Under the pieces are notes generated by a model. That model did no database searches, was not told where the DNA came from, and worked only from the letters and a program-made list of their open reading frames with translations. This document shows, piece after piece, positions 3,726 to 28,204 of a DNA stretch of 64,000 nucleotides. A program made the position numbers and the translations under genes. Origin of the DNA: Rhodothermales bacterium (lineage in GTDB: Bacteria > Bacteroidota > Rhodothermia > Rhodothermales > VXPQ01); assembly GCA_951812335.1 (NCBI GenBank), contig OX638293.1:1720731-1784730 (forward strand), given 5' to 3'. Each line of letters starts with the position of its first letter. Position 1 is the first letter of the stretch.

Positions 3726-3811
3726 GGATTGCGTGACATGAAGCATTTGGATAGGAACGCGCGGTCGATCTTCCTGCTCCGAACTTCGAGGCAAGTTACA
3801 ACCTTGTTACA

Positions 3812-7765: not shown

Positions 7766-7831
7766 ATGCCTACAAAAGACAGATACCATGATGTATTGGG
7801 GATAAGGAGGGGGGTGTTTCATGTACGGTGA
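7766..7831 (+). CDS. 21-codon leader ORF overlapping the SDR start
   Basis: A strong Shine-Dalgarno AGGAGG at 7755-7760 precedes ATG at 7766. The ORF reads 21 codons to TGA at 7829-7831, overlapping the first 11 bases of the SDR gene in another frame. Such an arrangement can couple translation of the downstream gene. The peptide (MPTKDRYHDVLGIRRG followed by five more residues) resembles nothing recognised. It could be chance, but few genes in this window have so good a ribosome-binding site. Confidence 0.35.
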   Translation: MPTKDRYHDVLGIRRGVFHVR

Positions 7832-8579: not shown

Positions 8580-8645
8580 CCGGGCTTCTTTGGATTACGT
8601 TTGGGGAGTTTTATCCGCCTTGACGCCCACAAAAAACCTTTTTGC

Positions 8646-9005: not shown

Positions 9006-9085
9006 CTGCTTATAGCCCCAGGCCCTCTCTGATTCAACGTGTGTTACCCTTTGTACGAACGACACAAGGAGCGTTACTTCGCTAC

Positions 9086-10144: not shown

Positions 10145-10150
10145 GGGCGT

Positions 10151-10672: not shown

Positions 10673-10735
10673 TCGCGGCGAGGATTTCGATATGACCTTC
10701 TCCATTCCGACCATGTGCATATACATCCTGAAGGC

Positions 10736-12028
10736 ATGAGTTTGGCTATCGTCATATTGGTCGTTTGTTTTCTTGTGTTGCTTCTCATGGATGTGCCTGT
10801 GGCCTATTCCATCGGGATGGCGACATTGCTGACTATGCTGGTGACCGTCGATTTTACGCCTGCGGCAAGTACAACGGCCCAGCGGATCGCCACGGGGCTC
10901 GACAGTTTTACATTGCTGGCGATCCCTTTCTTCATTCTGGCCGGCAACCTGATGGGCCGTGGAGGGATTGCCCGGCGTCTTATCGCTTTTGCGCGGGCTA
11001 TGGTTGGCGCGCTTCCAGGCGGGCTTGCGTTCGTAAACATTATTGCCTGTATGCTCTTCGGCGCTATTTCGGGTTCGGCCATAGCTGCCGCGGCGGCTAT
11101 CGGCTCGGTCATGCATCCGAAGATGGTCGAGAACGGGTATGCACCCAATTTCAGCACCGCCGTAAACGTTTCGTCGGCCACGACGGGTCTGATTATTCCG
11201 CCGAGTAATGTGCTGATCGTCTACTCGCTGGCCAGTGGCGGCGTTTCCGTAGCGGCTTTGTTCGTCGCCGGATACCTGCCCGGTCTGCTGCTTGGCGGGA
11301 TGCTCATGGCGGTGGCGGCCATCGTAGCCCATCGGAAAGGATTTGGCAAGGACGAACGTGTTCCTGTCCCGGAAGTGCTCAAGCGTTTTGTCGACGCCTT
11401 GCCCAGCCTGACCCTCATCGTTGTCGTCATTGGCGGGATTGTAGCAGGCATTTTCACGGCAACGGAGGCCGCCGCTATCGCAGTCCTGTATGCGCTGCTG
11501 CTTGTCTTGCTCTACCGTGAAGTGAATCCCCGCGAGTTGCCGGGCATCCTGCTCAACTCCGTAGTGACGACAGCCGTCGTGATGCTTCTTATAGGTACTT
11601 CGTTGGCGCTTTCCTGGGTGCTCTCGTTCGAAAATATTCCGCAAGACGCCGCCAACGCCCTTATCTCATTAAGCAACAACAAGATCGTCATCCTGCTTAT
11701 CATCAATGTGTTACTCCTTGTGGTAGGCACGTTCATGGATATGACTCCGGCGATCCTGATTTTCACCCCCATTTTTCTGCCGATCGTCGTTACCTTGGGA
11801 ATCGATCCCTTGCATTTTGGCATTCTGATGGTCTTTAACCTGTGCATCGGGCTTTGCACCCCACCGGTCGGCACCGTGCTCTTTGCCGGGGCCGGCATTT
11901 CCAGGGTTCCGGTGACGGACGTGGTCCGGCCCCTGCTGCCGCTTTATGCAGCCATGTTGCTTGGCCTGCTTTTAGTCACCTTTATTCCGGAAATTACCCT
12001 GGTCGTACCGAGATTATTCGGGCTTTAA
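10736..12028 (+). CDS. dctM: TRAP transporter large permease DctM
   Basis: This 430-residue integral membrane protein of the DctM family is the catalytic subunit of the TRAP transporter. It shows about twelve hydrophobic segments. Family signatures include the N-terminal LLMDVPVAYSIGMAT, the GRGGIARRLIAFARAMVG loop, GAISGSAIAAAAAIGSVM, and the C-terminal NLCIGLCTPPVGTVLFAG. The start at ATG 10736 gives a normal N-terminus; a GTG at 10715 in frame is an alternative. The stop codon TAA at 12026-12028 is formed by the TA flank plus the first base of a repeat element, so the insertion sits exactly at the end of the gene. Confidence 0.92.
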   Translation: MSLAIVILVVCFLVLLLMDVPVAYSIGMATLLTMLVTVDFTPAASTTAQRIATGLDSFTLLAIPFFILAGNLMGRGGIARRLIAFARAMVGALPGGLAFVNIIACMLFGAISGSAIAAAAAIGSVMHPKMVENGYAPNFSTAVNVSSATTGLIIPPSNVLIVYSLASGGVSVAALFVAGYLPGLLLGGMLMAVAAIVAHRKGFGKDERVPVPEVLKRFVDALPSLTLIVVVIGGIVAGIFTATEAAAIAVLYALLLVLLYREVNPRELPGILLNSVVTTAVVMLLIGTSLALSWVLSFENIPQDAANALISLSNNKIVILLIINVLLLVVGTFMDMTPAILIFTPIFLPIVVTLGIDPLHFGILMVFNLCIGLCTPPVGTVLFAGAGISRVPVTDVVRPLLPLYAAMLLGLLLVTFIPEITLVVPRLFGL

Positions 12029-12283
12029 GGATACTCTGATTAAATCCGCAAAGTTCAGAGGCTGAAAGGGGTGCGCTGGCAAGAAATGACGAAGCAATGT
12101 GGCAGGCCCCACATAATGAGGAATGACGCAGCCAGCGTGCCCCTCTCTACCTCCCGAAGGGCGCTTCACGCCCGAGATGCCTCGAATCTGCGGTGTTTTC
12201 CACTAATTTCAATGATGCAAATACAATATCTTTTACGCACGAGCGTGAAGCGCTGATCAAAGTGGATTTAGTCAGAGTATCCT
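12028..12283 (+). mobile_element. MITE-like structured repeat, copy A
   Basis: This 256-bp element has terminal inverted repeats reading AGGATACTCTGATTAAA at the left and TTTAGTCAGAGTATCCT at the right, with TA on both sides (12026-12027 and 12284-12285). Inside is a ~23-bp hairpin with arms at about 12059-12081 and 12126-12149, flanking a conserved core containing GTGGCAGGCCCCAC. A second inverted repeat, GCGCTTCACGC/GCGTGAAGCGC, links the middle to the right side. It contains no plausible gene. Five related copies occur in the window. TA flanks are what IS630/Tc1-type transposition would leave. Confidence 0.8.
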
Positions 12284-12472
12284 TAAGAACCATTACGGGG
12301 AACGGGGAGAAGACGCATAAGGACAGGGGGCGGTGTCATTAGACAAATTTTTCCAGTCGAGTCTTCGATGGCCCACGACTATTTTCGCCGGAAGAGCCGC
12401 AGAATCGCGCCCTGATGAAACAAGAGGGCACGTGAGGTGTCTAAAATAGTTTACTATAAGATTGCTCAATCG
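12284..12472 (+). other. Leader region of the FadR-type regulator gene
   Basis: This non-coding stretch lies between repeat copy A and the chosen regulator start. It includes an AT-rich segment near 12443-12470 that could be a promoter or, if the GTG at 12437 is used, coding sequence. No TGT-NNN-ACA dyad like those at 20467 and 31078 was seen here, so autoregulation is not supported by sequence. Confidence 0.4.
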
Positions 12473-13237
12473 ATGGCTAAACAATTCGAACCCGTTGGAA
12501 AAACACAGCTGCTCAGTCATGCTGTAGGGAGGGCCATTGAGGATTCTATCCGGTGTGGACAATTGGTTCCGGGCATGAGGATGCCCCCGGAAATCCAATT
12601 GTGCGAACAGTTCGGCGTCAGCAGAACCGTTCTTCGCGAAGCATTGCGCATGCTAAGCGGGAGGGGATTGCTTCGGATCGAGAAAGGCCGCGGGATTTTT
12701 GTGAATGAACTGACGACCGAAACCGTTACGATTCCTATGGAATTGTATCTCCACCAGAAATTCGGTTCGCTTCATTGGTTGGACGTAATCCGTGCGCGTC
12801 AGATCATCGAACCCGCTATTGCTGCCGAAGCCGCTCTGCATCGTACGAGTGAAGACATCGATCGGCTTGATCAGGATTTCCGGGAGTTAAAGGACTGCGA
12901 GAGCGGGAGTGGGAATCTTACCGCGCTGGACATGGCTTTTCACCTGCACATCGCCGAGGCGTCCGGCAACCCCGTGGTACCTCTTCTTGTTCAGCCCATT
13001 CATGCCCTGATGCCCCGGATTAAGTCGTCCGTTCACCAGGTGGTTATAGACGCCAGAGAATCGGCAATAGAATGGCATAGCAAGATTTTGCAAGCCATTG
13101 CAGCGGGTATGGCCGATGAAGCCCGCCTATGCATGGCGCAGCATCTGGACGTGTCCGAAGATCATGTACGGCAGGTTATGGAAGTCGAGGCTATCGAGAA
13201 CGGGCAACCGGAAGAGCTTGTAGCCAGTGCCTCGTAA
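12473..13237 (+). CDS. FadR-subfamily GntR transcriptional regulator
   Basis: This regulator of ~254 residues has an N-terminal winged helix-turn-helix (about 10-75). It contains AVGRAIEDSIRCGQLVPGMRMPPE and CEQFGVSRTVLREALRML-x-GRGLLRIEKGRGIFV, the GntR signature. The C-terminal FCD-type all-helical ligand domain includes LDMAFHLHIAEASGNPV and a later HSKILQAIAAGMADEA segment with likely metal-binding histidines. Members of this group usually sense carboxylated sugars or organic acids. Being inside the alginate cluster, it probably responds to DEH or KDG and binds TnGTnnnACnA-type sites, which are present upstream of two cluster operons. The start at ATG 12473 is preferred over GTG 12437. 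Confidence 0.87.
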   Translation: MAKQFEPVGKTQLLSHAVGRAIEDSIRCGQLVPGMRMPPEIQLCEQFGVSRTVLREALRMLSGRGLLRIEKGRGIFVNELTTETVTIPMELYLHQKFGSLHWLDVIRARQIIEPAIAAEAALHRTSEDIDRLDQDFRELKDCESGSGNLTALDMAFHLHIAEASGNPVVPLLVQPIHALMPRIKSSVHQVVIDARESAIEWHSKILQAIAAGMADEARLCMAQHLDVSEDHVRQVMEVEAIENGQPEELVASAS

Positions 13238-13291: not shown

Positions 13292-16171
13292 TCATTGCTG
13301 TGATGAGGTGATTTCACCGAGCCGTCGGCGCAGTTGATATCGGTAGAGGGAGGGTACCGTAATACCGGGCCGGTTGACGCCCTCGATGTACGTATCGGAT
13401 CCGTACTCGAAGCGAACCGGCACATTGGCCTTCAGTCCGACGATCCGGACCGCCCGGCCTTCTTCCACGGCGCCGAGATAAGCGGGAAGACGGATCGCGC
13501 CGGGCTGCTCAAAGGAAATGCGGATATTCCAGAACGTATTACCTGCGCCGTACGTTGCTTCCGGGGACGGTTCCCCGCTGTACCTGAATAACGTACTGTG
13601 GTTGCGGTCCTCGACGAGCGTAAGGTCATCGAAAAGATTCTGATGATTGAAACCGCGATCCTGGTCGAGGCTCGGTCGCAAAATCCGGCCCTGGGTGAAT
13701 ACGCAGGCACGGCTGCCGGCGCCGAAACTGACGGAATGGATTGACGAATTTTGGGCGTCGAAGTCTTTAATCAGTACATGATGCGCATCGCCCATATGTA
13801 TGTTGTAGTGACTTGTCCGGCCCGTGAATGTCAGATTCCGGAGGGTCAGGTTGGAGGAGGAAGTACTGAGGATGCCGGCGTCCGCGTTACGGATGTGTAC
13901 GTTTCGTATCCAGCCGTGGCGAAGACCGGTGAGATAGAACGCATTGTAGCCGTCTTCCAGATGGTGACCGGCATACGGTACATCGGCAAATTCGATCCTC
14001 AGGCGCTCGATGCCGACTTCCTTCAGAAAGGCTGTCGTCGTCAGCTTCGCTTCCCATTCCGGGCCAAGGTCATAGAGTAGAGGCTCTTTGATCGAGACCG
14101 TGTTGTCCACAATGCCCGTGATGGTTACGTCCTGCGTGGTAAGTGGGCTGTCAGGGCTATTTTCCGGGTGGTCGTCGGATTTTTGCTCCGCTGCTTCGCC
14201 GGTGCAGGGCGGGGAGCAGACATCGTCCCGGGTAAACCATGCCACGCGCACTACCTGGCCGATTTGCAGCTCCGTTGCGTCAGCAACTTCCATCCGGTGC
14301 GCGCCACGCGCCCCGTCCACGATCGGCGTCAGCATTTCCGGTCGGGACAGAGTCGGCAAGCGTGTCCAGAACACACCGCCCATCCGGGAAAACGGGGAAG
14401 GGGGCAGTCCGTTTACCCGTTTATCCTTTTCGATGAGCGACTGCCGCATTTCCTGCAACACGGGGGGCATGTTCATTGCTCCCAGCGCTTTTTCAATAAC
14501 GATCACGGTCCCGTTCTCTCCGCTGCCTGCGCCTTGTACTACAAAGTCGCTCCGCTCGATGAACAGGATGTCCGAAATGTGATATCGACCCGACGGTATG
14601 TGGAGAACCACCGGGTCTTCCATCGATTGCACCGCCGAAAGGGCGCGTTTGAATGCGTTGGTGTCGTCGTTCATATCGTCGCCGGTGGCGCCGAAATCGG
14701 TTACGTCGATCGTCGGAGGAAGCTCGGGAGGCGAGCGCTCTCCCCAATGGTAGCCTGCATAGGAAAAATCCGGGGGATGATTTTCGTCTTCCGACAATAC
14801 GCGCGGGGTCCACGGCAGCGAGAACCATGCAGGCCCCACATCGTCCGGCGTCAGCGGTTGGCTTTCGGGTGTGGCGCCCTTGCCTGCCGCCGGACCCGCG
14901 GGATCGGGTCGCCAGAGGCCGTCTTCCCCAGGAAGGAGTTGCGGATTTTCCCATTGGATTCCTTCCGGCAGAGGTACGCCGAGGTCGGAACCATACATCA
15001 CATTGCCGCGCCATGCGATGTCCTGAGGCGGCGCCATGGCGAACACCACTGGCGCCGGGCTATCGGTGTACACGACATTGTCGACGAACGAGACCCCTTG
15101 CGGCGGCAGGGACTTTTCGCTGTCCATTCCCAGTCCGTACAACATCGTAACGCGGGTATCGACAAACGTGTTGTTGGCGATGTGTGCGTTTTTGACCTGG
15201 AAATACCGATTCAGGGGCGAATCGGGTATGCCGTTCATGATGGGGAGCGCGGCCCGCGAGGAATCTCCCTGCAAGTTTGCAAAATAATTATGCCGGACAA
15301 GGTGATCTTCCCCGATCACGCGTACCCCACCCGTGCCGGGGCGTCCGTTCCCGAGGAAAAAATTGTATTCCACCACGGCCCGGTTGCCATGACGCAGCGT
15401 GAGCGCCCCCTGGGATTCGAGGAAAGTGTTGTAGCGGTAGACGTTTTCTCCGGATTTGTTGGAAATGATTTCGTGTTCTCCGTCGGTTCGCTCGAACAGG
15501 TTGTATTCGACGACCGTACGCGAATCCTGCATCGAACGGTGGCTCGTGCCTATGCGGATGGTTTCTCCGCCGTTCTTTCCGAGAGGGGGGCGGGGACCGA
15601 AATGATTATGATCTACACGGTGGTAGTTCGGTTGGTGGTCCGGCGGGTCCTCAAGCCACACGACCAGTGTGGTTCCGTCGTGTGTTTTTCCGGCGAAATA
15701 ATTATGGTCCACACGGTTGTGTGCGCCATAGATCGAGACCCACTTGTAGCCGGTCAGCCAGTTGGGCGGATTGTATTCGGTGATGGCGCAGTTGGTAAGG
15801 CGGCTGTGATACGCTGCCCGGTTCCGGTTTATACGGAAGGCAATCACATGTCCCCCCTCGAGAGCGCCCCGGTGAAACCATAATCCCTCCACTTTCAGGT
15901 AGCTACCTCCGATGCGGAGCCTGGATGTTCCTGTCAGGATCACCTGTCCCGGAGTTTCCGCCCTGACGGTAATGGTGTCTCCCTCCATGCCGTCCGCATC
16001 GAAGTCGAGGTGGGCATCCCGCCAGACGCCATTGGCCAGAAGGATGGTATCGCCTGGCTGTGCCGTCTCCACGGCGCTGTGGAATGCATCCACCGACCGA
16101 ACAAGGGTATCGTCTCCCATGGCGGGCAGCGCAGCGAACCAGCAAAGCGCTATGAGGAACGATACCCTCAT
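13292..16171 (-). CDS. PL6 alginate lyase fused to a second pectate-lyase-3-like beta-helix
   Basis: This 959-residue exported protein has two beta-helix modules. After a signal peptide (ending near PAMGDD), residues ~22-450 are a PL6 (alginate lyase/chondroitinase B family) domain. It has Ca-site acids in GGETIRIG and GEHEIIS, the catalytic Lys239 in NKSGEN and Arg260 in LTLRHGN, spaced 21 apart as in characterised PL6 enzymes. From ~487 a second domain begins with IDVTDFGATGDDMNDDTNAF, the start typical of pectate-lyase-3/GH28-like helices. No T9SS tail is present. Its ATG overlaps the TGA of the upstream PL6 gene (ATGA), so the two are translationally coupled. Confidence 0.85.
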   Translation of the reverse strand: MRVSFLIALCWFAALPAMGDDTLVRSVDAFHSAVETAQPGDTILLANGVWRDAHLDFDADGMEGDTITVRAETPGQVILTGTSRLRIGGSYLKVEGLWFHRGALEGGHVIAFRINRNRAAYHSRLTNCAITEYNPPNWLTGYKWVSIYGAHNRVDHNYFAGKTHDGTTLVVWLEDPPDHQPNYHRVDHNHFGPRPPLGKNGGETIRIGTSHRSMQDSRTVVEYNLFERTDGEHEIISNKSGENVYRYNTFLESQGALTLRHGNRAVVEYNFFLGNGRPGTGGVRVIGEDHLVRHNYFANLQGDSSRAALPIMNGIPDSPLNRYFQVKNAHIANNTFVDTRVTMLYGLGMDSEKSLPPQGVSFVDNVVYTDSPAPVVFAMAPPQDIAWRGNVMYGSDLGVPLPEGIQWENPQLLPGEDGLWRPDPAGPAAGKGATPESQPLTPDDVGPAWFSLPWTPRVLSEDENHPPDFSYAGYHWGERSPPELPPTIDVTDFGATGDDMNDDTNAFKRALSAVQSMEDPVVLHIPSGRYHISDILFIERSDFVVQGAGSGENGTVIVIEKALGAMNMPPVLQEMRQSLIEKDKRVNGLPPSPFSRMGGVFWTRLPTLSRPEMLTPIVDGARGAHRMEVADATELQIGQVVRVAWFTRDDVCSPPCTGEAAEQKSDDHPENSPDSPLTTQDVTITGIVDNTVSIKEPLLYDLGPEWEAKLTTTAFLKEVGIERLRIEFADVPYAGHHLEDGYNAFYLTGLRHGWIRNVHIRNADAGILSTSSSNLTLRNLTFTGRTSHYNIHMGDAHHVLIKDFDAQNSSIHSVSFGAGSRACVFTQGRILRPSLDQDRGFNHQNLFDDLTLVEDRNHSTLFRYSGEPSPEATYGAGNTFWNIRISFEQPGAIRLPAYLGAVEEGRAVRIVGLKANVPVRFEYGSDTYIEGVNRPGITVPSLYRYQLRRRLGEITSSQQ

Positions 16172-17922
16172 TGCCGGATGAGCATGTGTGTCTGCTGCTG
16201 ATCGTTTACGTTCAGTCTGACCATGTACAGTCCGGCCGGAAGGCCCGAGGCTTCAAAAATCACGCGGTGCTCGCCCTGCGTTCGGAGCGCATCGAGCAAG
16301 CTGGTCACTTCCCGTCCCAGTATATCGTACACGACAAGTCGTACATGACCGGATTCCGCAAGCGTAAAGGATACATGGGTGCGGGCGTTAAACGGGTTCG
16401 GTGCGTTCGTGATCGTTACGCTGGTGGAAGGTAGTTCCTTCGGAGGGGATTCCACCGACAGGACGATACTGAGGAACGAGGGGCCTACGTCGGCTTCCGT
16501 CAACGGACGATTTGTTATGGGCGAGGCTGCCTGTTCATCGGCGCCGATATCGGGGGTGGCGTCCCGCGCCTGACCGTCCATGTCGGTGGTGGCGAAGGCG
16601 AGGGCTGCGGCGGCATTGAGGGCGGGGGAGGAGGCGGAAGGCCGCCACAATAACCCGCTTTGCGTCAACTGGGGGTCCACGGTGGAAATACCGTCGGGCT
16701 GCTCAATGCCCAGTGTGCTCCCATGCATGATATTCGTGGCGTAGGAGATGTTGACAGGGGTGTCTTCGTATTCGAGAATCGGCCCCATCGATGTCTCCAC
16801 AAGGTTGCTGGCAATGGTCAGGTTCTCCGGGGGTAGCGACTGTTCGTTGCTTTTTCCTGCCCCGATGACGAACGTTTCCTCCGTATTGACGAATGTATTG
16901 AAGGCGACGATTGCATCCTTGACCTGGAAATAGCGGTTGAGCGGCGAATTTTCCACCCCATTCACAACCGCCAGCGTGGCGCGGTAGCCCGTGCCGGTCA
17001 GATCCTGGAAATAGTTGTTGTATACTTCGTGCCGCTCTCCGATAATCCGAACCCCGCCCGTTTGGGATTTGCCCTCCCCAAAAAAGAAGTTACCGTATAC
17101 ATGGGCCTCGTTTCCGTGGCGTAGCGTCAACGTGCCTGCCGAGCGACGGAAGGTGTTGTAGCGAAACGTGTTTTGTCCGCTTTTGTTGGAGATGATTTCG
17201 ATCTCGCCATCGCACTCCTCGAAGAGGTTGCGTTCGACCGTTACAAAGGAATTTTGCATCGAGCGGCTGCTCGTTCCGATACGGAGGGTTTCTCCCCCGT
17301 TTTTGCCCAGATCCGGGCGATGGCCGAAGTGGTTTTGATCCACCCGGTGATATGAGGGCGTATCGTTTGGGGGGTCGCGCAGCCAGACGACGACCGTGGC
17401 CCCGTCATGGGTTTTTCCGGCGAAATAACAATGGTCCACCCTGTTGTGCGTGCCGTAGATGGAGACCCATTTGTACTCCGTCAGCCTGTTTGGCGGGTTA
17501 TAATCCGTGATGGCGCAATTGGTAAGCCGGCTATGGTTCGCGAGGCGTGAAGACGAACGCCTGAATTGGATAATGTGCCCGTCTGTGAGCGCTCCCCGGT
17601 CGAACCACAGTCCATCCACCTTCAGGTAGTCGCCGGCGATGCGCAAGGTGGACCGCCCGTTCAGGATGACCTTTCCCGGGGTTTCCGCCCGTAACGTGAT
17701 GGTGTCGCCTGGGGCGCCCTCGGCGTAGAATGCGATTTGCGTATCCGTCCACACCCCGTTCGCCATCACAATGGCGTCGCCCGGATCCGAGTTCGAGATG
17801 GCTTGAGCAAGCTCCGTCGGGGTGCGGACAAACCGTTCTTGCTGTGCGAACGCCGGGAGCGTCCACCACAGGACAGGAAGAATCGATGCGGTGGCCAGAC
17901 AGGCCAACCGGAAGATGGACAA
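16168..17922 (-). CDS. PL6 alginate lyase with T9SS-type C-terminal domain
   Basis: This 584-residue secreted lyase is homologous to the N-terminal half of the downstream PL6 protein. A signal peptide ends near PAFAQQ. The PL6 beta-helix carries GGETLRIG, Lys247 in NKSGQN and Arg268 in LTLRHGN, again 21 residues apart. The last ~85 residues form a FlgD-like/T9SS type A sorting domain (ITNAPNPFNARTHVSF ... YDILGREV ... LPAGLYMVRL), implying export across the outer membrane by T9SS or surface attachment. The start appears to be TTG at 17922, since no ATG lies upstream in frame before the hairpin at 17941-17987. Its end overlaps the next gene by 4 bp. Confidence 0.87.
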   Translation of the reverse strand: MSIFRLACLATASILPVLWWTLPAFAQQERFVRTPTELAQAISNSDPGDAIVMANGVWTDTQIAFYAEGAPGDTITLRAETPGKVILNGRSTLRIAGDYLKVDGLWFDRGALTDGHIIQFRRSSSRLANHSRLTNCAITDYNPPNRLTEYKWVSIYGTHNRVDHCYFAGKTHDGATVVVWLRDPPNDTPSYHRVDQNHFGHRPDLGKNGGETLRIGTSSRSMQNSFVTVERNLFEECDGEIEIISNKSGQNTFRYNTFRRSAGTLTLRHGNEAHVYGNFFFGEGKSQTGGVRIIGERHEVYNNYFQDLTGTGYRATLAVVNGVENSPLNRYFQVKDAIVAFNTFVNTEETFVIGAGKSNEQSLPPENLTIASNLVETSMGPILEYEDTPVNISYATNIMHGSTLGIEQPDGISTVDPQLTQSGLLWRPSASSPALNAAAALAFATTDMDGQARDATPDIGADEQAASPITNRPLTEADVGPSFLSIVLSVESPPKELPSTSVTITNAPNPFNARTHVSFTLAESGHVRLVVYDILGREVTSLLDALRTQGEHRVIFEASGLPAGLYMVRLNVNDQQQTHMLIRQ

Positions 17923-17994: not shown

Positions 17995-20361
17995 CTATTT
18001 CAGTAATGTGAGTGTGCGGTGTTGCACCTGATCGTCCACGCGAAGCCGGTACACATACAGACCTGCCGCGTAGCCTTCGAGCGAGAGGTCTACGATATAC
18101 TCGCCCGGCGCAGCGTGCGTGTTCGCAACGCTGGTTATCTGGCGTCCCAGCATATCGAAGACCTCCAGCGTAGCCATACCTGGCTCATCGATTTGATAGG
18201 GTATGGCGGTCTGCCCATAGAAAGGATTGGGATAGTTCTGTCCCAAAGTCATCTGCGTGGGCAAAACGATCTCGTCCTCGCTCGAAACGGGTCCCATGGT
18301 CCAACGCGGGTCGCCCCAGCCCGCTTCCTGCAGAATTCTGTGGCCGAGCGTAAAGTCCAGGTTGGCCGGGTCTGCGAACGTGGGATCCAGATTGAGGATA
18401 TTGTGCTGCGTGGCCCCGCTGGACAGTATGATGGGGGATACTTCGAACAGGTTCGAATGGGTAATGCTCGAATTGCCCTCGATCAGGACCGAGCCTTCCG
18501 TATCCACGTTGCTATGGGCGAGGATGCTGTTGGTGATCGTCGCATTGAGGATGTTGCGGGGAAAGATCGCGCGTCCGTTGCCGGAGCCGCAGTTGTAACA
18601 GGTCAGGCCGTCCACTTTGAATTCCGGCTCCGGCGTGCTCTCGTCTTCGTCGCCGCCATCCACGTAAATGCCGTCGGCTTTCGTGTTCGAAATAGTCGAA
18701 TTCGAGACCTCGAAATAATTGACGTTGTGAATTCCCAGCGCCTTGTTGTCGCTGGACTCGTCCTTGATCCGGAGACCTTCCTTGCCGCTGTTGTCCAGCA
18801 CCACGTTCCGGAAAATGACGGAATCGGCAAGCGTTCCTGCGTATTGACGGAGGAAGTTGCCGTCGCTGCCTGCCACCACGTCATGCAGGAAGCTGTCGTA
18901 CACCTTCAGGTTCATGCCATCCACGACATCATCGCCGTCGATACGCAGGAGGTATTTCGCATTGAAATCCGTCCCGGCCTGTCCGTCGATTTCTACGCCA
19001 TGAAGCGTGAAATCGTCGTAGATGCGAAAGACGACACGCGTACTCTCGTCCGGTTCATTGTTTTTGATGACCGGTTTATCGGCCAGACCGTAAGCAGCCC
19101 GGACCGTAAGGGGGACTTCGATGTTGATCTGGTCGTCATTGAGGTATTCCCCGCCGCTATCGGTGAGTTCGATGATGTCGCCTGCCGCAGCGGCCTCCAC
19201 GGCCTCCATCAGCGTATTCTGGCCGGCCGCCACCTGGTGTACGGCGCCGCCGCCACCGCCTCCGGAAGGCCACCAGCGCATGTCGCCCAGGTCCGAACCG
19301 TCTTCGCCCGCGCCGATGAGGGGCGAAGCGCTGGAGAGCGTGAAGTCTCCGTTGTCCGGATCGGCAAACATGGGATCGACCGCGTAGAGGGATTCAACCG
19401 TGGGGTTTCGCCGGTCTTCCGGGGAGCCCGAGGCGAATGTCCAGACGCCATCGTCGCTGACATTGAGCGTGTCGGTGTAGGCGATGCGCGCACCGGTCAC
19501 AAGCCAAGGCGCTCCAAACGACGATGCGCCGGTTGCATTGACGATATCGTAGTTTCCGACCAGAATAGAATTGGTCACCTGGGCGTCTTCCACATCTTTC
19601 AGGTTGATGACGTAATGTCCGGCGTTGTGGATTGTCACATGGTCAATGAGTACTTCCGGCCCGGGCGTATTCGGATCTTCGTCTCCGCCGTAGACGCTGA
19701 TGGCGTCGTTCTTGATATCCCAGAAGGTGGAGTGCGATACCTCGAAGTAATTCACGTTGAAGAAGCCGAAGCCGCGCCGGTCGCTGTCTTCGTCACGCAC
19801 CCGGACGCCTTCCTTCCCCATATTTTCGAACAGACTGTTGCGTACAATGATGGAATCGGCCATCGTACTCCCGTAGGCGCGGAAGGCGTTGCCGTCGGCG
19901 CCGCTGACGATATCGTGGAAATAGCAGTCTATGATTTTCAGCACGTAGCCTTGCTTCACGTTGGCGGCGTCCCCGCTCCCTGAGCCGGTGCGGATACCGT
20001 ATTTCGCTTCGTTGAGTCCGTCGAGTTCCAGCCCGATAAGGGTGAGGTCGCTGTACAGCCGGATAATGTCCTTCGTGCTGTCGCCGCCGGTGTTCTGCAG
20101 CACGGGACGATTCGTCAGGCCGTCCGCGGCCTTGATCGTCAGGGGAAAGTCCGGTTTGATTTCGTCGGGGTTTGTGTATAGCCCGCCGTCGGTAGTGAGC
20201 ACGAGTATGTCCCCGGGGTTCGCTTGGGAAACGGCCGCGAGAATAGTGCTGTCCCCCGCTGCAACCTCGATTTCGACCTGGGCCAGAGCGGGCGAAGAAG
20301 CCCATAGCGCAAGCGTGAAGATGGCTGCAAACGTCTGGAAATACGTAGCAAGTCGGTTCAT
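17995..20361 (-). CDS. Tandem right-handed beta-helix protein with T9SS-type tail
   Basis: This secreted protein of 788 residues has a signal peptide ending in SPALAQ. It contains two homologous modules of ~330 residues. Both carry the series 'AAGDSTILAAV' or 'AAGQNTLMEAV', 'GLTNRPVLQN' or 'GLADKPVIKN', 'GKEGVRVRDED' or 'GKEGLRIKDES', 'NVNYFEVS' and a DPxFADPxNxDFTL end, so the gene arose by internal duplication. A Gly-rich linker joins them. The C-terminus is a FlgD-like sorting domain (NYPNPFYGQT ... DMLGRQ ... AAGLYVYRL). No PL6 Lys/Arg pair is evident. It may be an alginate lyase of another beta-helix family or a binding protein. The ATG at 20361 is chosen over the open frame to 20505 because it begins the signal peptide. 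Confidence 0.75.
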   Translation of the reverse strand: MNRLATYFQTFAAIFTLALWASSPALAQVEIEVAAGDSTILAAVSQANPGDILVLTTDGGLYTNPDEIKPDFPLTIKAADGLTNRPVLQNTGGDSTKDIIRLYSDLTLIGLELDGLNEAKYGIRTGSGSGDAANVKQGYVLKIIDCYFHDIVSGADGNAFRAYGSTMADSIIVRNSLFENMGKEGVRVRDEDSDRRGFGFFNVNYFEVSHSTFWDIKNDAISVYGGDEDPNTPGPEVLIDHVTIHNAGHYVINLKDVEDAQVTNSILVGNYDIVNATGASSFGAPWLVTGARIAYTDTLNVSDDGVWTFASGSPEDRRNPTVESLYAVDPMFADPDNGDFTLSSASPLIGAGEDGSDLGDMRWWPSGGGGGGAVHQVAAGQNTLMEAVEAAAAGDIIELTDSGGEYLNDDQINIEVPLTVRAAYGLADKPVIKNNEPDESTRVVFRIYDDFTLHGVEIDGQAGTDFNAKYLLRIDGDDVVDGMNLKVYDSFLHDVVAGSDGNFLRQYAGTLADSVIFRNVVLDNSGKEGLRIKDESSDNKALGIHNVNYFEVSNSTISNTKADGIYVDGGDEDESTPEPEFKVDGLTCYNCGSGNGRAIFPRNILNATITNSILAHSNVDTEGSVLIEGNSSITHSNLFEVSPIILSSGATQHNILNLDPTFADPANLDFTLGHRILQEAGWGDPRWTMGPVSSEDEIVLPTQMTLGQNYPNPFYGQTAIPYQIDEPGMATLEVFDMLGRQITSVANTHAAPGEYIVDLSLEGYAAGLYVYRLRVDDQVQHRTLTLLK

Positions 20362-20545: not shown

Positions 20546-23125
20546 TTACTGCACGCGCACGACTTTTCGTACGACGATATGCTTTTCGGAATGGGTCAGT
20601 CGCACCAGGTATACGCCGGCCGGAACGTGCGCGCCATCCGAACCGCGACCGTCCCAATGCACTTGCTGCTTGCCCGGTGCACCGCTTCCTTCGGCAAGGG
20701 TAAGCACTTTCTGGCCCAGCAGATTGAACACGTCCATTCTGTATGTACCGGGTTTTTTTAGTTCTATGACGAACGATGTGGCGTCGCGGAACGGGTTAGG
20801 ATAGTTGTGTACCTCTAAACCGGGCGAAGCAGGCAGTTCGTTTTGCAATCCCAACACGTGCGTTCCGATCGTGAGCGAGATCCGGTCCTCGTTCCTGTCG
20901 AACGGGACAGTCGCCCCGCGCACCCTGACCTCGGTTACATTGGCGGCTTCCGGCCAGGAGACCTCCAGCCGAAACGCTTGCGTCGTTTGGCTCGGTTCGA
21001 TGACGAGCAAGCCCGGCGTCCCGATATCCAGCGCAAGCGTTGCAGGCTGTTCCGCCGTTAACGCTAATGCGCCGCTGCGGAACATGGTGGCGTCCCGGAA
21101 TGCAAAGTGCGAAAGATGGCCGTCGGTGGTGCGCAACCACGCAAAGGCGGCGTCTGTTGTAAAGGCGGCGAGCGTCTGTTCTGCCGGTTCATGCTGGAGC
21201 AGGAAAACATCGGCCGTGTTGTTTTTTTCGAGGGAGGCTGCAACGTATGCGTCCGTGCTCAGATCGATGGCCGCAGGTTCGGGCCCGTTCTGGGGGCCTG
21301 GTAACAAGAGTTGGAGGAATGCAGCGTTTTGTCCCGTTTGCGTGACCTCGACGTACTGTTCGAACCGTTCGTCCTTGAACAGGCTGATATATCCGGTGGT
21401 ATTGGTCACGGATGCGGTCGTTGGAAAGAAGAAGGCGTCCAGGCGGGCGTCTTCGCCGTATCGGTTGGCGAAGGGTTGCCATGAGGCATGATGCCCGCTG
21501 CGATCGAATCTGCCGCGTCCGTGCAGGTAGGAACGATACGTATGAGATTCATCGCCCGTCAGCAGATCCGCCACAACGAAATAGTCCTCTCCGACAAAAC
21601 CGACGATGCGAAAAAGATTGGCGTCGTTCGGACGGAGGTACCCGCTTTGTTTTTCTGCAAAGTCGAAAAAGGACGAATTGATATAGTGATGGGTGAGGGG
21701 AGTGACATTGTACACGTACGGCTGATAGAACAGACTGTCGGTAAACGGCGGAAACCCGTCCGCGGTGACGATATTGTGCGCCTTTGCGGTGGTGTACCAC
21801 GAACCGCGCCGGTTGTCCGAGAAACCGTTCGGGCCGTAGCCGGCGTCGGGGGCGAGGAGAGCGTCATTCCCGCCGAGAAAGAAGGAGAGTTGGTCGGGGT
21901 GATTATGGTTGTCTGCCTCGGCGACGCCGTGGAAGAGGAGATAGCGGTCGTTCGGGCTGCTTGTCCACTGGTTACGGAAAACGATCTGTCCGGTTTGGAG
22001 AAACTGCGTGGGCGAGACCGTAGGCGGGGCCGATGGAATACTGTCGTCAAAAAGGATGTATTCGTCGATTTCCCAGGTTACGTCTACGGTAGCCCCGGTG
22101 TAGTCCTCGTTGAAGATGTGGGTGTTTTCGTAATTCCACTGAGACAGGGCGGCGAAGTCGGCGTTGGGGTTAAGATCGGTTGGACTTCCATGGTACGCCG
22201 CCGCCACCATGTGCGTAGGCGCGGGCTTGATATAGGAATCTTCCATATTGGGAATCCATCCCCGCCCGGTGCGTATTTTGATGGGCCACTCGAACACCGG
22301 TTTGTAGTCCTCGAACAGGTTGACGCCGGAAACATTTTTGTAGTGCCACAGAAAGGGAATGAAATTCACGGCATTATACATCCAGTAGTGCCCTCCTTCC
22401 CGGTAGATGCCGTCGGCGCTGAACTGATAGCGGGTGACGGAGTTGGCGGCTTCGAGCGCGTACCGGAGCCAGTCTTCGGCGTGCGGGTGGTCGGTCAGGG
22501 CAAGCGCGGCGGTACCAATGGCCCAGGCGGGCTTGGAGCGATGGTTGTGCGGGCGCGGGGCCAGCCGGGCTCCTTCTGTCAGGTTGTCGCGCAGATACTG
22601 AACCTCTTCGGCAATGCGGCGGCGGATTTCGGTGTTTTGCTCCGCGTTCAGCCGGTCGAACACCCAGTCGTAGGCGGCGGCGTAGTTCTGCAACCAGGTT
22701 GCGCGGTAAATCTCGTCGTACGGTTTCTCTCCCGTCTGGGGAACGCCTTCGTAGGCCAACAGAAGCATCTCGATGGCCTTTTGAAGCGCCTGTTCGTCTT
22801 CTTCGATGAGCCACCAGAATGCAAGGGTTTTTGCGGCGCGCGGGCGGTCGTTCTCATCAAGGTCTCCGGCGTTTTTCGTAATGTACTTGAGCGCATCGGC
22901 CCTGAAGCGCACCCACAGCGTATAGTATCGGGACGAGGTTTCCGTTTTTCGCGCGCGGAGGACGGGAATGTCGCTCGCAGTGAAATACAGCGAAGGATGT
23001 ACTTCGCTTGCTGGAAGCACGGGGGTGGCGTCCACTGCGAAACCGTTGTACGTATCGTACTTCGGATGCTGCGCCCAAAGCAAGGCGGGGAAGAGGAAGG
23101 GCAAAAAGCATCCGAGGCGTTTCAT
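20546..23125 (-). CDS. Heparinase II/III-fold polysaccharide lyase with sorting domain
   Basis: This 859-residue exported protein has a signal peptide ending LLWAQ. An alpha/alpha-toroid region contains RATWLQNYAAAYDWVFDRL, NHRSKPAWAIGTAAL and YREGGHYWMYNAVNF. The heparinase II/III-like beta region contains ADNHNHPDQLSFFLGGN, DAGYG and TTAKAHNIVTADG, positions that in this fold supply the catalytic His/Tyr and metal ligands. It differs clearly from the PL17 gene at 5497 and may belong to PL39, PL15 or an unassigned family. The last ~85 residues are a FlgD-like T9SS sorting domain (HNYPNPFRDAT ... NLLGQKV ... VPAGVYLVRL). A repeat element lies 20 bases upstream of its ATG. Confidence 0.78.
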   Translation of the reverse strand: MKRLGCFLPFLFPALLWAQHPKYDTYNGFAVDATPVLPASEVHPSLYFTASDIPVLRARKTETSSRYYTLWVRFRADALKYITKNAGDLDENDRPRAAKTLAFWWLIEEDEQALQKAIEMLLLAYEGVPQTGEKPYDEIYRATWLQNYAAAYDWVFDRLNAEQNTEIRRRIAEEVQYLRDNLTEGARLAPRPHNHRSKPAWAIGTAALALTDHPHAEDWLRYALEAANSVTRYQFSADGIYREGGHYWMYNAVNFIPFLWHYKNVSGVNLFEDYKPVFEWPIKIRTGRGWIPNMEDSYIKPAPTHMVAAAYHGSPTDLNPNADFAALSQWNYENTHIFNEDYTGATVDVTWEIDEYILFDDSIPSAPPTVSPTQFLQTGQIVFRNQWTSSPNDRYLLFHGVAEADNHNHPDQLSFFLGGNDALLAPDAGYGPNGFSDNRRGSWYTTAKAHNIVTADGFPPFTDSLFYQPYVYNVTPLTHHYINSSFFDFAEKQSGYLRPNDANLFRIVGFVGEDYFVVADLLTGDESHTYRSYLHGRGRFDRSGHHASWQPFANRYGEDARLDAFFFPTTASVTNTTGYISLFKDERFEQYVEVTQTGQNAAFLQLLLPGPQNGPEPAAIDLSTDAYVAASLEKNNTADVFLLQHEPAEQTLAAFTTDAAFAWLRTTDGHLSHFAFRDATMFRSGALALTAEQPATLALDIGTPGLLVIEPSQTTQAFRLEVSWPEAANVTEVRVRGATVPFDRNEDRISLTIGTHVLGLQNELPASPGLEVHNYPNPFRDATSFVIELKKPGTYRMDVFNLLGQKVLTLAEGSGAPGKQQVHWDGRGSDGAHVPAGVYLVRLTHSEKHIVVRKVVRVQ

Positions 23126-23459: not shown

Positions 23460-24911
23460 TCAAAACCGGTACGTTGCGCCGAAGAACAGGCTGTTCTTGC
23501 GAATGCGATTGTAGTCCACGTTGGATTCCCAGCGATCCTGATACAACAGACGTTGCACATCATACGTCAGGTCGAAGGTGACCGGGCCGATGGGCAACCC
23601 GAGGCCGGCGCTGAAAGCGTTTCCGCGCGCCGTTTGTCCCAGCAGGCCGAATCCTTCGATCAGGAAGGGCTGCGGATCCTGCCGGAATCCGGCCCGGATA
23701 AACCAGTGTTCCCGCAATTCCCACTCCAGGCCCAGCCGCACTCCCCGGATGGTTCCCCAATCGAGCCAGGCGTCCGCAAGACTTCCTGGATCCGTTAATG
23801 CTCCCTGACGAAATAGTCCATTTCCTGCAAGCGCCTGTACTTCAAGTTCTTCGTAATGGTGTATGAAATAATCCACCGTCAGCATGAGGTTTGCAGCTGG
23901 CCGGAACGCTGCTCCGGCAGTGAACCGGAACGGTAATGTGATTTCTTCCTCTTCCTCGACCGTGTGATTCGAGGAGCGCCCATCGAGGTCTACGTGGATT
24001 CCGTCATAACTAACGCTGCGTGTAAGCTGAATGGGCAGTTGGTACAGCACGCCGAGGCCCAGTACGTCCGTTTCCCAGTGTAAGCCCCCGGCCGCTGTCC
24101 AGCCGCTGTAATCCGAGGACCCGTTCCATCGGATGGAGCCGTCCAGCGTAGTGAACGAGTAATCGTGGGCATCCTCGCGGAGGAGGAATTGTCCCCGGCT
24201 GCTGTGGTGCTGGATATCGTCCGAACTACCTTTCCAGTAGGAAAAACGAAGCCCAAGATGAACACGCGGCAGGATTTGTAACGCCACAACAGGCGACAGA
24301 GCCCGGATCGCGCCTTCCCGTTGCCGTTCGAAAGACGACCAGACTACTTCTATCTCTTCGCCCGGATTAGGGCGGTCGACCGGGACCGGGCGAAATTGGC
24401 CAATGTAGGGATCGAGTACGTTGTCGTTCCTGTCGTAATCGCTCAGATCGGCAACGAGGCGCCAGGCTATACCAACAGTAACCGTGCGGTTGCCTATAGA
24501 GAACGGGAAAACGCCCCCTGCAAAGGCAGGGTAGAATGTGTCCTGGGCGTGAGACCAGTCGGGCACGGAAAGGGCGTCGGAGCGATACGTTTCGGGATCG
24601 GAAAAGTAAAGCGATATGCCGGCATAGTACCGATTGGGATTCCAGTGTTGCGTTTCCGCCCAATTACGGGACTGCCATGCCCCGGCGACAGAAAGGGCAG
24701 GACGCGATATACTGGTCAACCCTGCCGGATTCAGCAACATGGCTTCCGGGCTGCCGCCGCCGGAAGCCGCGAACGCCCCGCCCATGGCGCGCGCCCGTAC
24801 CGCCACAGGGTCCTGTTGCTGTATGCCTTGTATCGTGAGCGGCTGCATGACCCCCTGAGCCTGGACGGCCGGGATAAGCAGGAGATTCAGCAAAAGGAGC
24901 CGGATACGCAT
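23460..24911 (-). CDS. FadL/OmpP1-like outer-membrane beta-barrel protein
   Basis: This 483-residue protein has a signal peptide ending AVQAQ. The N-terminal DPVAVRARAMGGAFAASGGG-type segment followed by PEAMLLNPAGLTSI resembles the FadL/OmpP1 and PorV-like barrels, which share a 'MGGA ... NPAGL' start. The rest alternates polar and aromatic residues as expected for a transmembrane beta-barrel and ends with FFGATYRF, a C-terminal aromatic that suits BAM insertion. It is the last gene of a four-gene operon (10 bases after the previous stop). The role may be transport of hydrophobic or oligosaccharide ligands; specificity is unknown. Confidence 0.72.
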   Translation of the reverse strand: MRIRLLLLNLLLIPAVQAQGVMQPLTIQGIQQQDPVAVRARAMGGAFAASGGGSPEAMLLNPAGLTSISRPALSVAGAWQSRNWAETQHWNPNRYYAGISLYFSDPETYRSDALSVPDWSHAQDTFYPAFAGGVFPFSIGNRTVTVGIAWRLVADLSDYDRNDNVLDPYIGQFRPVPVDRPNPGEEIEVVWSSFERQREGAIRALSPVVALQILPRVHLGLRFSYWKGSSDDIQHHSSRGQFLLREDAHDYSFTTLDGSIRWNGSSDYSGWTAAGGLHWETDVLGLGVLYQLPIQLTRSVSYDGIHVDLDGRSSNHTVEEEEEITLPFRFTAGAAFRPAANLMLTVDYFIHHYEELEVQALAGNGLFRQGALTDPGSLADAWLDWGTIRGVRLGLEWELREHWFIRAGFRQDPQPFLIEGFGLLGQTARGNAFSAGLGLPIGPVTFDLTYDVQRLLYQDRWESNVDYNRIRKNSLFFGATYRF

Positions 24912-24920
24912 GACCCTGTA

Positions 24921-25922
24921 TTACTCGACGGAGAAAGAAAGGCCGAGGCGATGGACGCCTCCGAAAGCATCGCTCATGTCGCTGTAGGAATAATCAAGGC
25001 CTAACTCAAAGGATCCGATGGATTGTTGCAGTCCTCCTCCAAAACTTAGCGAGGCCGTGTCGAAATTGTGCTGGTAGCCCCCGCGGAGCATGAACCGCTC
25101 GAGAAACACATATTCAAGACCGGTCGCCCATTGCTGATCGTAGTCATTGGGCTGGATGAGGTCGAAGGTGGTGGTAAGACGACCAATTCCGGAACGGGCG
25201 AACAATCCGTTTGCGCCGATCATGTCCATGGCCGCGCCAATGCGGAACAGCAAAGGCGCAGGGTAATCCTCTTCTTCAAAAGAGACAGGCGATCCGAAGT
25301 TTATGACGGACGCCCCGACGCGCAGCGAGCGAAAGCCCGTTTCATAGTTCATTCCAAAGTCAAACAACAGCACCTGGCTTGAAGAGAGCCAGAGGTCTTC
25401 CCGCGCAAGTTTTGCGGTGAGGCCTGCCGAGAAGCGGTCGGTAAAGTTGCGGGCATACGTAAGACCGGATATCCAGCTTTTAGGGGAAAACGACTGCCCG
25501 GTAAGGCCGGGGTTATAGACCTGTGTTCCATTTCGATCCACGAAGCCGAGGTGATCCACCCGGGTTTCCTGGAAATCGCCCATGTCCGCGAAATAGAAGT
25601 GGAAGCCCAGGTGTCCGAATCGGCCCAGAGAACCGCCGTAAGCCACTGCGTAGTGGGCTGCATCGAGGAACCAGTCCACCCTGTCAAGGGAGAGGGTGTG
25701 CCCGGCTGCGCGAGCCAGGCCCGCCGGATTCCAGTAGAGCGCGTCCGCCCCGGCGCCCAAAGCCACATAGGCCGTACCGAGACCCGCCGCATGGGCGTTA
25801 GGGGCCACTTTCAAAAACTGCATGGAGGACGTACCTACCTTTTGGGCCCAGCCCGTCGTCGCCGGCAGCAAGAGCAGGAGCACGATGCTGCATCGAAAGA
25901 CTATTTTTGCGATGGCGCTCAT
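24921..25922 (-). CDS. PorV/PorQ-like outer-membrane protein
   Basis: This 333-residue protein has a signal peptide ending TTGWAQ. The start of the mature protein, KVGTSSMQFLKVAPNAHAAG followed by LGTAYVALGAGADALYWNPAGLA, is the hallmark of the PorV/PorQ (UPF0164-like) family linked to T9SS. The C-terminus (HRLGLSFSVE) is strand-like. In T9SS, PorV binds cargo C-terminal domains and shuttles them to attachment. Here it follows directly, with a 4-bp overlap, a gene whose product bears such a domain, so the pair may be cargo and shuttle. Homologues of this family next to TonB receptors are common in Rhodothermota-like genomes. Confidence 0.8.
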   Translation of the reverse strand: MSAIAKIVFRCSIVLLLLLPATTGWAQKVGTSSMQFLKVAPNAHAAGLGTAYVALGAGADALYWNPAGLARAAGHTLSLDRVDWFLDAAHYAVAYGGSLGRFGHLGFHFYFADMGDFQETRVDHLGFVDRNGTQVYNPGLTGQSFSPKSWISGLTYARNFTDRFSAGLTAKLAREDLWLSSSQVLLFDFGMNYETGFRSLRVGASVINFGSPVSFEEEDYPAPLLFRIGAAMDMIGANGLFARSGIGRLTTTFDLIQPNDYDQQWATGLEYVFLERFMLRGGYQHNFDTASLSFGGGLQQSIGSFELGLDYSYSDMSDAFGGVHRLGLSFSVE

Positions 25923-28204
25923 TTGATGACCACGAATTTGCCCCGGTATGTCTGTCCGTCCGATGCGTGTACGACGAAGAAATACACCCCGGAAGCGATC
26001 TCCTGATCGTTCCGAGTCACCTGAAACCAGGGGGTGGAATATTGCGCCGCATCATGTTCGATCGTTTGCACAAGCTGCCCGCTGTACGAATAGATCTCGA
26101 TGGTGGCTTGCTCTGGAAGTCCATAGAAGCCGATTTGCTGCCCTGGCGAGTTGTTTCCCGTTCCGCCGCCGGTAAAGCCGCTGTTCAGATAGAATGGGTT
26201 CGGCACCGCATGGACCTCGGTGAGTTCTACGGCAGGTCCGAGTCCGGCCGTGGATTGCGTGAGGTTTGTTCTTCCGCTGACGTTGCCTGCCGCATCCACC
26301 GATGTTACAGAATACCACTGCGATTCCCCGACAATCGTTTCGTCGTCTATGACCTCGTACATATCTCCATCCACGAGATACTGCGCACTGCCTACCGGCA
26401 CTTCGGCCAGAAGCGTCCACGGCCCGATAGCGGCACTCGATTTATATACATGGTACGTCGCCGGAGGACCCGTCAGGCGGGGATGCGTGAATTCCTCTTG
26501 CGCGCGTCCCCATCGAATCACCGAGTGCGCGAATTCGTTGTTGCTTATGACAGTGATGGGGGCGGGGGGCGGCGTGGGGATCTGGTACAGCCCGTCCGGA
26601 GCGTTGTCCTCGGGCCAGAGCGGAAGAACGGGAGGCTTGCCCGTATAGGCATTGTAGGCCATGTCCGCGACGTCCTTCACCGTTCGTACGTCGGAATTCA
26701 CATAGTCGGGATAGCCGTAGTCGCCGAGGTAATTTTGCGTAAGAACCTGTCCCGAGGCAGGATCTTTCACTACGTCGTTCCATCGCGGGACCAGATGCCA
26801 GGGCAGTTGCTCGTCGATCACCTCGCCCAGCCCGCCGCCTTCGTCCCAATCGTTGGGATCTTCCGTGGCGCCGTACCCGACCACTTCCGCGTAAGAGAAC
26901 TCGATTTTCTCTCCCTGTTCCAGGATGTAGGGACCGAAAACGATATGGTGACCGACCGCTTTATACGACTGGCGGAAATTGTATGCGCCCCGCCCGGTCC
27001 AGCGTAGTGAATCCGAGTCTTCCGTTCCGGGCGGAGGCGGAAAGACCGTTTCCCGGTATGGGGTGTAGGTGCCGCTCCAACGGGTATACGGCACCAGCTT
27101 GGGTATCATTTTGTCTTCCCGCGAATTCCCGCTCTCCACCTTGTTCATGAACGGTTGCTTGAGCGTACTGTCCGCGGTGATCATCCGATCGTTGGAAACA
27201 CGGGGATCGAGGGCGAACGTTTCGCCCCGTTTGGCGAGGTGGTTTCTGTCGTAGAACAACATCTGGATACCGGGAACCTGAGGCGACATCAGTCCTCCTC
27301 CTTGGTCGCCCGAACTGGCGAATGTCGAGAAATACTTCGGTTCCGGCTTGCCGCCATCGGAAAAATCGGTGTCCAGACCATTGCCGTTGTTGACGACATA
27401 GCGCAGCCAGCGATGGCGATCGAAATATCCGAACAGATCGTTTTTATACATGAAATCGTATTCCCACGTCCCGTACCATCGCTGGAAGCCTAACATCGAA
27501 GGGGCTACCCCGTAGTGAAAGCCGATAAGAACCTCATATAGCGTCTCGTCGGTATTCGCTACGCCGTCCCCGTCCGTGTCCCCCGTGTTTTCGAAAGTAT
27601 ATTCGAAAATGATCAGATCGTCGTAGTCCGGGTAGCTCCAGGCTCGCGTGGTGCGGGTCACGGTGATGCCGGTGTTTGTCGCCCATTGGGACACGATGAT
27701 CTCTTCCGCCTCATCCGGATCGTAGTTCGGGTTGAGCGTGCCGTCGTCGAGCAAGGGATAATTCTCGATCCGCTCGATGGAGATGGGAAACGAATAGACG
27801 CCTGCCACGGTGATCGGAATGTGTTGACCGGAAGACCCGCCAAACGAGTATAACCGCTCCGTAAGATCGAACGGATTGGCGTCTTTATAAGAGGCGGCGA
27901 TGGAAATACCCCCTCCTATGATGTTATGCTGTCCGCTGTACTGAAGTCCGTCGATGTTGGTGGCGGAGTTGCCGGGCCACTCCATCAGCGGTTCCAACGT
28001 GATATCGTGGTCGCGGTAGTGCCACCTTCGCCCGATTTCGCCGGTGTTATAGACGGTCTCATGCAGCATTCCGCGCTTGTGCACACGCGACTCACGGAGT
28101 TGTTGCCCCTCGACCGTGCCTGTACACAACAGGAACGGCAACGCAACAAGCGCGGTGGCGCGTACCGTCATGGCGGATATTTTTCTTCGTTCGATCTTTT
28201 TCAC
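25919..28204 (-). CDS. Large secreted protein with T9SS-type tail, partner of TonB receptor
   Basis: This 761-residue exported protein has no recognised enzymatic domain. A signal peptide ends near GTVEGQQ. The middle includes a Ca-binding-like TDGDGVANTDETL segment, a Fn3-like part (SRVIRWGRAQEEF-type region through TYHVYKSSAAIGPW) and a final FlgD-like sorting domain (AVPNPFYLNSG ... SYSGQLVQTI ... IASGVYFFVV). It starts with GTG at 28204, overlapping the TonB receptor stop by 4 bp; an ATG at 28171 is an alternative. The tight pairing suggests it works with the receptor, perhaps in place of SusD, though it shows no SusD features. Function unknown. Confidence 0.68.
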   Translation of the reverse strand: MKKIERRKISAMTVRATALVALPFLLCTGTVEGQQLRESRVHKRGMLHETVYNTGEIGRRWHYRDHDITLEPLMEWPGNSATNIDGLQYSGQHNIIGGGISIAASYKDANPFDLTERLYSFGGSSGQHIPITVAGVYSFPISIERIENYPLLDDGTLNPNYDPDEAEEIIVSQWATNTGITVTRTTRAWSYPDYDDLIIFEYTFENTGDTDGDGVANTDETLYEVLIGFHYGVAPSMLGFQRWYGTWEYDFMYKNDLFGYFDRHRWLRYVVNNGNGLDTDFSDGGKPEPKYFSTFASSGDQGGGLMSPQVPGIQMLFYDRNHLAKRGETFALDPRVSNDRMITADSTLKQPFMNKVESGNSREDKMIPKLVPYTRWSGTYTPYRETVFPPPPGTEDSDSLRWTGRGAYNFRQSYKAVGHHIVFGPYILEQGEKIEFSYAEVVGYGATEDPNDWDEGGGLGEVIDEQLPWHLVPRWNDVVKDPASGQVLTQNYLGDYGYPDYVNSDVRTVKDVADMAYNAYTGKPPVLPLWPEDNAPDGLYQIPTPPPAPITVISNNEFAHSVIRWGRAQEEFTHPRLTGPPATYHVYKSSAAIGPWTLLAEVPVGSAQYLVDGDMYEVIDDETIVGESQWYSVTSVDAAGNVSGRTNLTQSTAGLGPAVELTEVHAVPNPFYLNSGFTGGGTGNNSPGQQIGFYGLPEQATIEIYSYSGQLVQTIEHDAAQYSTPWFQVTRNDQEIASGVYFFVVHASDGQTYRGKFVVIK

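Follow-up and report, generated by a model that had tools for sequence, protein, structure and literature searches.

About half of the PL6 enzymes carry a second β-helix behind the catalytic domain; what this C-terminal domain (CTD) does is described as unknown, and a part in substrate access has been proposed (PMC11381880). In AlyGC the CTD is a dimerisation domain that lies partly over the active site (PMC6879350), and elsewhere the PL6 CTD has been called predicted inactive (PMC13377030). The excerpts available of the literature found on PL6 and its CTD describe no free-standing or duplicated form of the domain.

Related proteins are known from other polysaccharide loci. BT4112 of Bacteroides thetaiotaomicron has been named a surface glycan-binding protein for homogalacturonan (PMC8002723), and a table row for BT4109-BT4114 names a DUF5123 protein (PMC10434189), presumably BT4112; in the portions of the literature searched, DUF5123 and DUF4957 receive one mention each. 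A further point of comparison is the alginate lyase PsAly (6kfn), a β-helix whose active site, Tyr184/Lys221, is unlike that of PL6 (PMC6796002).

The gene considered here lies in a window of 64,000 nucleotides – the whole stretch of Rhodothermales DNA that was analysed – and encodes a free-standing double copy of the CTD of two-domain PL6 enzymes, a module of the DUF5123 kind. Whereas two-domain PL6 enzymes have a single CTD after the catalytic domain, this tandem protein has two copies alone, together with export signals. With the DUF4957/DUF5123 PUL proteins of B. thetaiotaomicron (BT4112, BT1026) it has DUF5123 (twice) and a polysaccharide locus in common; unlike them it is duplicated, is exported by the type IX secretion system (T9SS), belongs to a cassette in which no SusD was found and stands in an alginate rather than a pectin context. 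PsAly shares with it the β-helix and alginate, but sequence searches at E up to 10 do not find it and its structural score is lower than those of the PL6 CTDs. With the PL6 catalytic domain (Chondroitinas_B) it shares the fold class, but no domain-level match.

Architecture of the tandem protein and identity of its modules

The open frame occupies exactly 17995-20361 on the minus strand, starts with ATG and encodes 788 aa; a longer frame, started by TTG, extends to 20505. The two modules are identical in 137 of 340 columns (40%; 214 bits, E 2e-71), far beyond chance, and every landmark quoted in a preliminary description of this DNA is found in the translation, so that its internal duplication, Gly-rich linker and sorting domain all stand (Table 1). 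The sorting-domain model (type A) scores well above its cut-off of 23 bits, the Pfam model Por_Secre_tail slightly below its own (25.2 bits against 27), and the genome holds a PorU sortase (962 bits). A sorting domain above cut-off and a sortase in the genome together mark the tandem protein as T9SS cargo. The 43 further matches to it in the genome all lie around the C-terminal tail stretch.

Table 1. Features of the tandem gene and its neighbourhood, in window coordinates
Feature	Position	Strand	Basis
Signal peptide	20281..20361	-	residues 1-27, end ...SPALA, then Q; translation, cleavage site by eye
Module 1, PL6 CTD-like β-helix	19264..20283	-	residues 27-366; phmmer BcAlyPL6 and VIA-align 7dmk_C
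Gly-rich linker GGGGGGA	19243..19263	-	translation; Gly run is residues 367-372
Module 2, same domain as module 1	18250..19257	-	residues 369-704; 40% to module 1
T9SS C-terminal sorting domain and stop	17995..18249	-	TIGR04183 38.2 bits
TonB-dependent receptor, carboxypeptidase-regulatory-like domain	28201..31032	-	Pfam, NCBIfam
Large secreted cassette protein, only T9SS tail recognised	25919..28204	-	domain searches and locus comparison
PorV/PorQ-family cassette protein	24921..25922	-	NF033709 183.6 bits
Outer-membrane β-barrel protein, conserved cassette	23460..24911	-	domain searches and locus comparison
Heparinase II/III-type alginate lyase with T9SS tail	20546..23125	-	like 6jph, E 1.3e-164
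PL6 catalytic domain with T9SS tail, no CTD	16168..17922	-	domain searches; NKSG, RHG segments
PL6 catalytic domain fused to pectate-lyase/RHGA-type β-helix, no CTD	13292..16171	-	domain searches
Oligoalginate lyase (PL17 type)	5497..7704	+	domain searches
SDR dehydrogenase, TRAP transporter (DctP, DctQ, DctM), GntR regulator	7821..13237	+	domain searches

A central question is what the modules are. Evidence that both are homologous to the CTD of two-domain PL6 enzymes – and are not of an unrecognisable kind – came from searches of solved structures. Module 1 matches BcAlyPL6 (7dmk) over residues 425-744 (phmmer, E 2.7e-24) and also Patl3640 (7o77), AlyGC (5gkd, residues 441-649) and 8bwk; module 2 finds the same CTDs (best E 1e-11). 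A profile of 25 modules reaches 7dmk at E 3.7e-38 and, at E up to 10, seven distinct sequences: two-domain PL6 enzymes and one weak match to another β-helix. All PL6 matches fall in the second, C-terminal β-helix domain, and profile-profile comparison with 15 fused CTDs spans 302 columns (prob 100), giving homology along the module. The modules nonetheless differ from the fused CTDs in being more acidic and in a GKEGxR signature that is without counterpart in most classic CTDs.

Domain models extend the picture. DUF5123 (PF17161) is recognised in two stretches of the tandem protein (80.7 bits against a curated cut-off of 35.1; E 2.2e-22), the best being residues 583-687 in module 2, and DUF4957 (PF16318) is absent from its Pfam matches at E up to 1. 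With the threshold set at E 0.001, both fused PL6 CTDs tested are assigned DUF4957 by Pfam, and all five of the free module proteins tested are assigned DUF5123, alone or together with DUF4957; some of the scores lie below the curated cut-off. Matches common to fused CTDs and free modules indicate that, judged by sequence, the PL6 CTD and the free module proteins of polysaccharide loci form one domain family.

The predicted fold leads to the same place. The model of module 1, built from 10 sequences, has a mean pLDDT of 68.7 and is mostly well predicted over residues 1-243 and poor over 244-342. Its top 12 Foldseek matches in the PDB are all two-domain PL6 chains, and in VIA-align the six listed two-domain PL6 entries take ranks 1-6 in their CTD ranges (Z 28.3-32.0), 7dmk_C 426-736 giving Z 32.0 (2.3 Å, 282 residues) and 5gkd_A Z 28.5. 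The next fold is 6kfn (Z 24.0, 3.1 Å, 252 residues), which we take to be of family PL31, and many unrelated β-helices score Z 20-23. The comparison with PL31 and PL6 structures proposed in the preliminary description has thus borne out the β-helix that it named, and the characterised family found is one of alginate lyases rather than one with another substrate, though it is matched in the domain whose role is called unknown. For the full-length tandem protein the structure model has a mean pLDDT of 62 and a pTM of 0.43, and we therefore make no claim on the packing of the modules.

The PL6 catalytic domain is missing. Pfam at E up to 1 does not list Chondroitinas_B (PF14592) for the tandem protein, and the PL6 catalytic profile, run with all filters off, yields 5.8 bits and no domain. 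The catalytic Lys/Arg pair (K220/R241 of AlyGC) is absent, as had been noted, because the whole domain is absent: the pair is not mutated, its domain is simply not there. Profile-profile comparison of the module with the PL6 catalytic domain gives a weak similarity that is confined to the N-terminal 122 columns (prob 95.8), and we therefore claim no catalytic equivalents; an equivalence drawn by eye between DGNxxRxY of the module and GGETLRIGTS of the PL6 catalytic domain was dropped, the profile-profile alignment having put that segment elsewhere. In both neighbouring PL6 genes the NKSG and RHG segments, where the AlyGC pair lies, are retained, and both genes are without a CTD.

The alginate locus and the distribution of free modules

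The PL6, 6jph-like and PL17-type lyases make this an alginate locus, as the preliminary description had it. The tandem gene is not the first gene of a PL6 operon, the position once assigned to it; it is the sixth of eight same-strand genes running from 31032 down to 13292 (minus strand), with the cassette and an alginate lyase upstream. The tandem gene is 184 bp from its upstream neighbour, and the fourth and fifth genes are 334 bp apart, so that a separate promoter within the run is possible; a promoter scan of the region returned 7 matches against a mean of 9.2 in shuffles, which is no excess.

Several of the neighbours deserve comment. The 6jph-like lyase, which we take to be PL39, escapes the oligoalginate-lyase family model, scoring 15 bits where the cut-off is 1400. 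The second half of the product of 13292-16171 matches PF12708 and resembles the BT3328 hyaluronan lyase family (E 8e-23); in other genomes a relative of this half is a separate gene near PL6 (L109:10171-12072; L137:4466-6211). From their context, the dehydrogenase, TRAP transporter and GntR genes on the plus strand would serve an alginate-monomer route, and a 475-residue frame at 2409-3836 (plus strand) is matched by neither Pfam nor NCBIfam at the cut-offs applied. No SusD was found in the TonB/PorV cassette. This set of receptor, secreted protein, PorV and β-barrel genes (23460-31032, minus strand) is conserved in distant genomes, also at a sulfatase locus (L111), and may be a non-Sus uptake system.

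Within the order Rhodothermales, 14 of 114 genomes have a match to the tandem protein or its modules: 13, all in families f1 and f3, have orthologous tandems, of which one is truncated at a contig end, and G055 has a two-module protein that has diverged. PL6 was detected in 23 of the 114 (four records, L009-L012, apparently equal to G113, G112, G111 and G013, were counted once). In f1 and f3 tandem and PL6 go together: among their 22 genomes, 13 have both, nine have neither and none has one alone. PL6 lies directly downstream of the tandem gene in 12 of 13 cases, and the remaining locus is truncated where its contig ends. Not one of the 24 PL6 genes of tandem loci (the window's two and 22 others; two cut by contig ends) carries a module. 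Two-domain PL6 enzymes occur in other genomes of the order (G019, G031, G047, G048, G050), all of them outside the 14. G037, G038 and G051 have CTD-less PL6 but no free tandem, the absence of the CTD having been checked with a broad model for L048 (G051) and L049 (G037).

In a phylum sample of 394 genomes, which takes in some Rhodothermales, the module profile matches 51 and PF14592 49; the module matches include weak ones, some of them read through stop codons. Free modules here vary in number and company. The cassette genes recur in G421, G158 and G172, where they lead into a protein with one module, a protein with three and a PL6 that has one module fused to it; G168 has a three-module protein of 1091 residues, G285 a one-module protein ahead of a PL6, and G316 both the cassette and a one-module protein, with three sulfatases alongside. 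One- or two-module proteins also lie near GH43 (G285) or GH2 (G185, G055), and no PL6 was detected in G316, G185 or G055 although module proteins are present. Among the f26 cassettes read, five contain the OMP gene (G421, G158, G172, G285, G316), and in each of them the module protein comes directly after it. Three-module proteins of 1418-1426 residues are encoded at L104:5861-10138, L105:8545-12819 and L108:8953-13206; that of L104, the one examined with Pfam, has four divergent InlB B-repeat (Flg_new_2) stretches as well.

Constraint, descent and probable role

Both modules are under constraint: in comparisons with four relatives, dN/dS is 0.11-0.57 for the seven computable of eight module comparisons. 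Six charged residues – R135, K157, E158, R161, D164 and E165 in module-1 numbering – are invariant in 25 of 25 Rhodothermales modules; R135, K157 and R161 correspond to R161, K183 and R187 when the whole protein is numbered. In 11 classic fused CTDs, other residues are commonest at K157 and R161, position 135 is Lys in six, and E165 is kept in all. The loss of several of these residues from the classic fused CTDs suggests that the free form of the module is under a constraint of its own. The modules are also strikingly acidic, with pI 4.2 and 4.3 and net charges of -30 and -33, against a median pI of 5.4 for fused CTDs (n=15) and 5.8 for the window's PL6 catalytic domains.

Trees were built from 48 of 63 rows, after removal of near-duplicate Rhodothermales loci, the cut module of G004 and one short fragment, and again from 45 rows, G055 and G185 being left out as well; the conservation table uses the same 45. 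On the first tree the fused CTDs take two changes, and on the second they all lie to one side of a branch that lacks support (74/11). The window's two modules form sister clades on the 45-row tree (93/86 and 92/89, not starred), where placing module 1 together with the fused CTDs could not be rejected (p 0.12). Both trees are unrooted, and we therefore claim neither fission of a PL6 nor fusion to one.

What, then, does the tandem protein do? Our data lead us to think that it is probably a non-catalytic, T9SS-exported surface glycan-binding protein of the alginate locus. Exported by the type IX system, it would be anchored or displayed on the cell surface, taking the place that SusE/SGBP proteins have in Sus-type loci; its two successive modules would present two chain-binding faces, and alginate would be held close to the TonB receptor and to the PL6 and PL39-like lyases that the T9SS exports, possibly through Ca2+ bridged by conserved acidic loops and conserved Arg and Lys. 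The export signal, the position in the cassette and the occurrence at several polysaccharide loci fit surface glycan binding better than a role as part of PL6 alone. The missing catalytic domain, the linkage to PL6 in f1 and f3 and the modules at sulfatase, GH43 and GH2 loci, three of them in genomes with no detected PL6, also speak for this reading, and BT4112, presumably a DUF5123 protein, is a precedent. Some observations pull the other way. One would expect a protein that binds a polyanion to be less acidic than this unless a metal forms the bridge; the strong acidity of the modules counts against plain charge attraction to alginate and would call for metal bridging. The invariant charged residues are a further point against, since they would suit an active site as well as a binding site, and so is the lack of a DUF4957 match in the tandem protein itself.

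An alternative that we consider unlikely is a split enzyme, in which the tandem CTD docks in trans on the two CTD-less PL6 proteins, giving shape to their active sites or covering them, in the way of the AlyGC domain. The distribution described above – tandem beside PL6 genes that never carry a module, two-domain PL6 only in genomes with no tandem match – speaks for it, and the dimerising, partly site-covering CTD of AlyGC (PMC6879350) offers a model for it. Against this stand the three genomes with CTD-less PL6 and no free tandem, the free triple-module proteins of G421, G158 and G172 that adjoin a PL6 already bearing its own module, the three genomes with module proteins in which PL6 was not detected, and single-domain PL6 enzymes, such as BcelPL6, that are active alone (PMC6879350).

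Slightly harder to credit is the proposal that each module is itself an alginate lyase or epimerase, working not with the PL6 pair but with the conserved ladder of Arg, Lys, Glu and Asp. Charged residues invariant in 25 modules, several of them not kept in the 11 classic fused CTDs, speak for it, and the next fold after the PL6 CTDs is an alginate lyase, 6kfn, with a site unlike that of PL6. Yet sequence searches miss 6kfn at E up to 10, structural scores of Z 20-23 go to many unrelated β-helices as well, fused CTDs have been called role-unknown (PMC11381880) or predicted inactive (PMC13377030), and the locus already has four recognisable alginate lyases. Bolder, and a shade more doubtful again, is the idea that the PL6 CTD is a general polyuronate-handling module that also occurs as an independent protein, and that its doubled form, with a new active site, would represent a new family of alginate-modifying β-helix enzymes. 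Least probable of all is a structural spacer or scaffold that just holds partner proteins at the surface and binds no glycan: acidic modules, a copy number of one to three and a position within the PorV/TonB cassette would suit it, but a charged patch conserved in both modules is more than a spacer needs, and the modules are found at specific polysaccharide loci.

Taken as a whole, the interpretation given in the preliminary description is partly supported. A natural CTD-only protein, doubled and beside CTD-less PL6 enzymes, opens the domain to study without its catalytic part. If the reading as a surface glycan-binding protein holds, the tandem protein would be a candidate alginate-binding protein for the TonB/PorV cassette, where no SusD was found.
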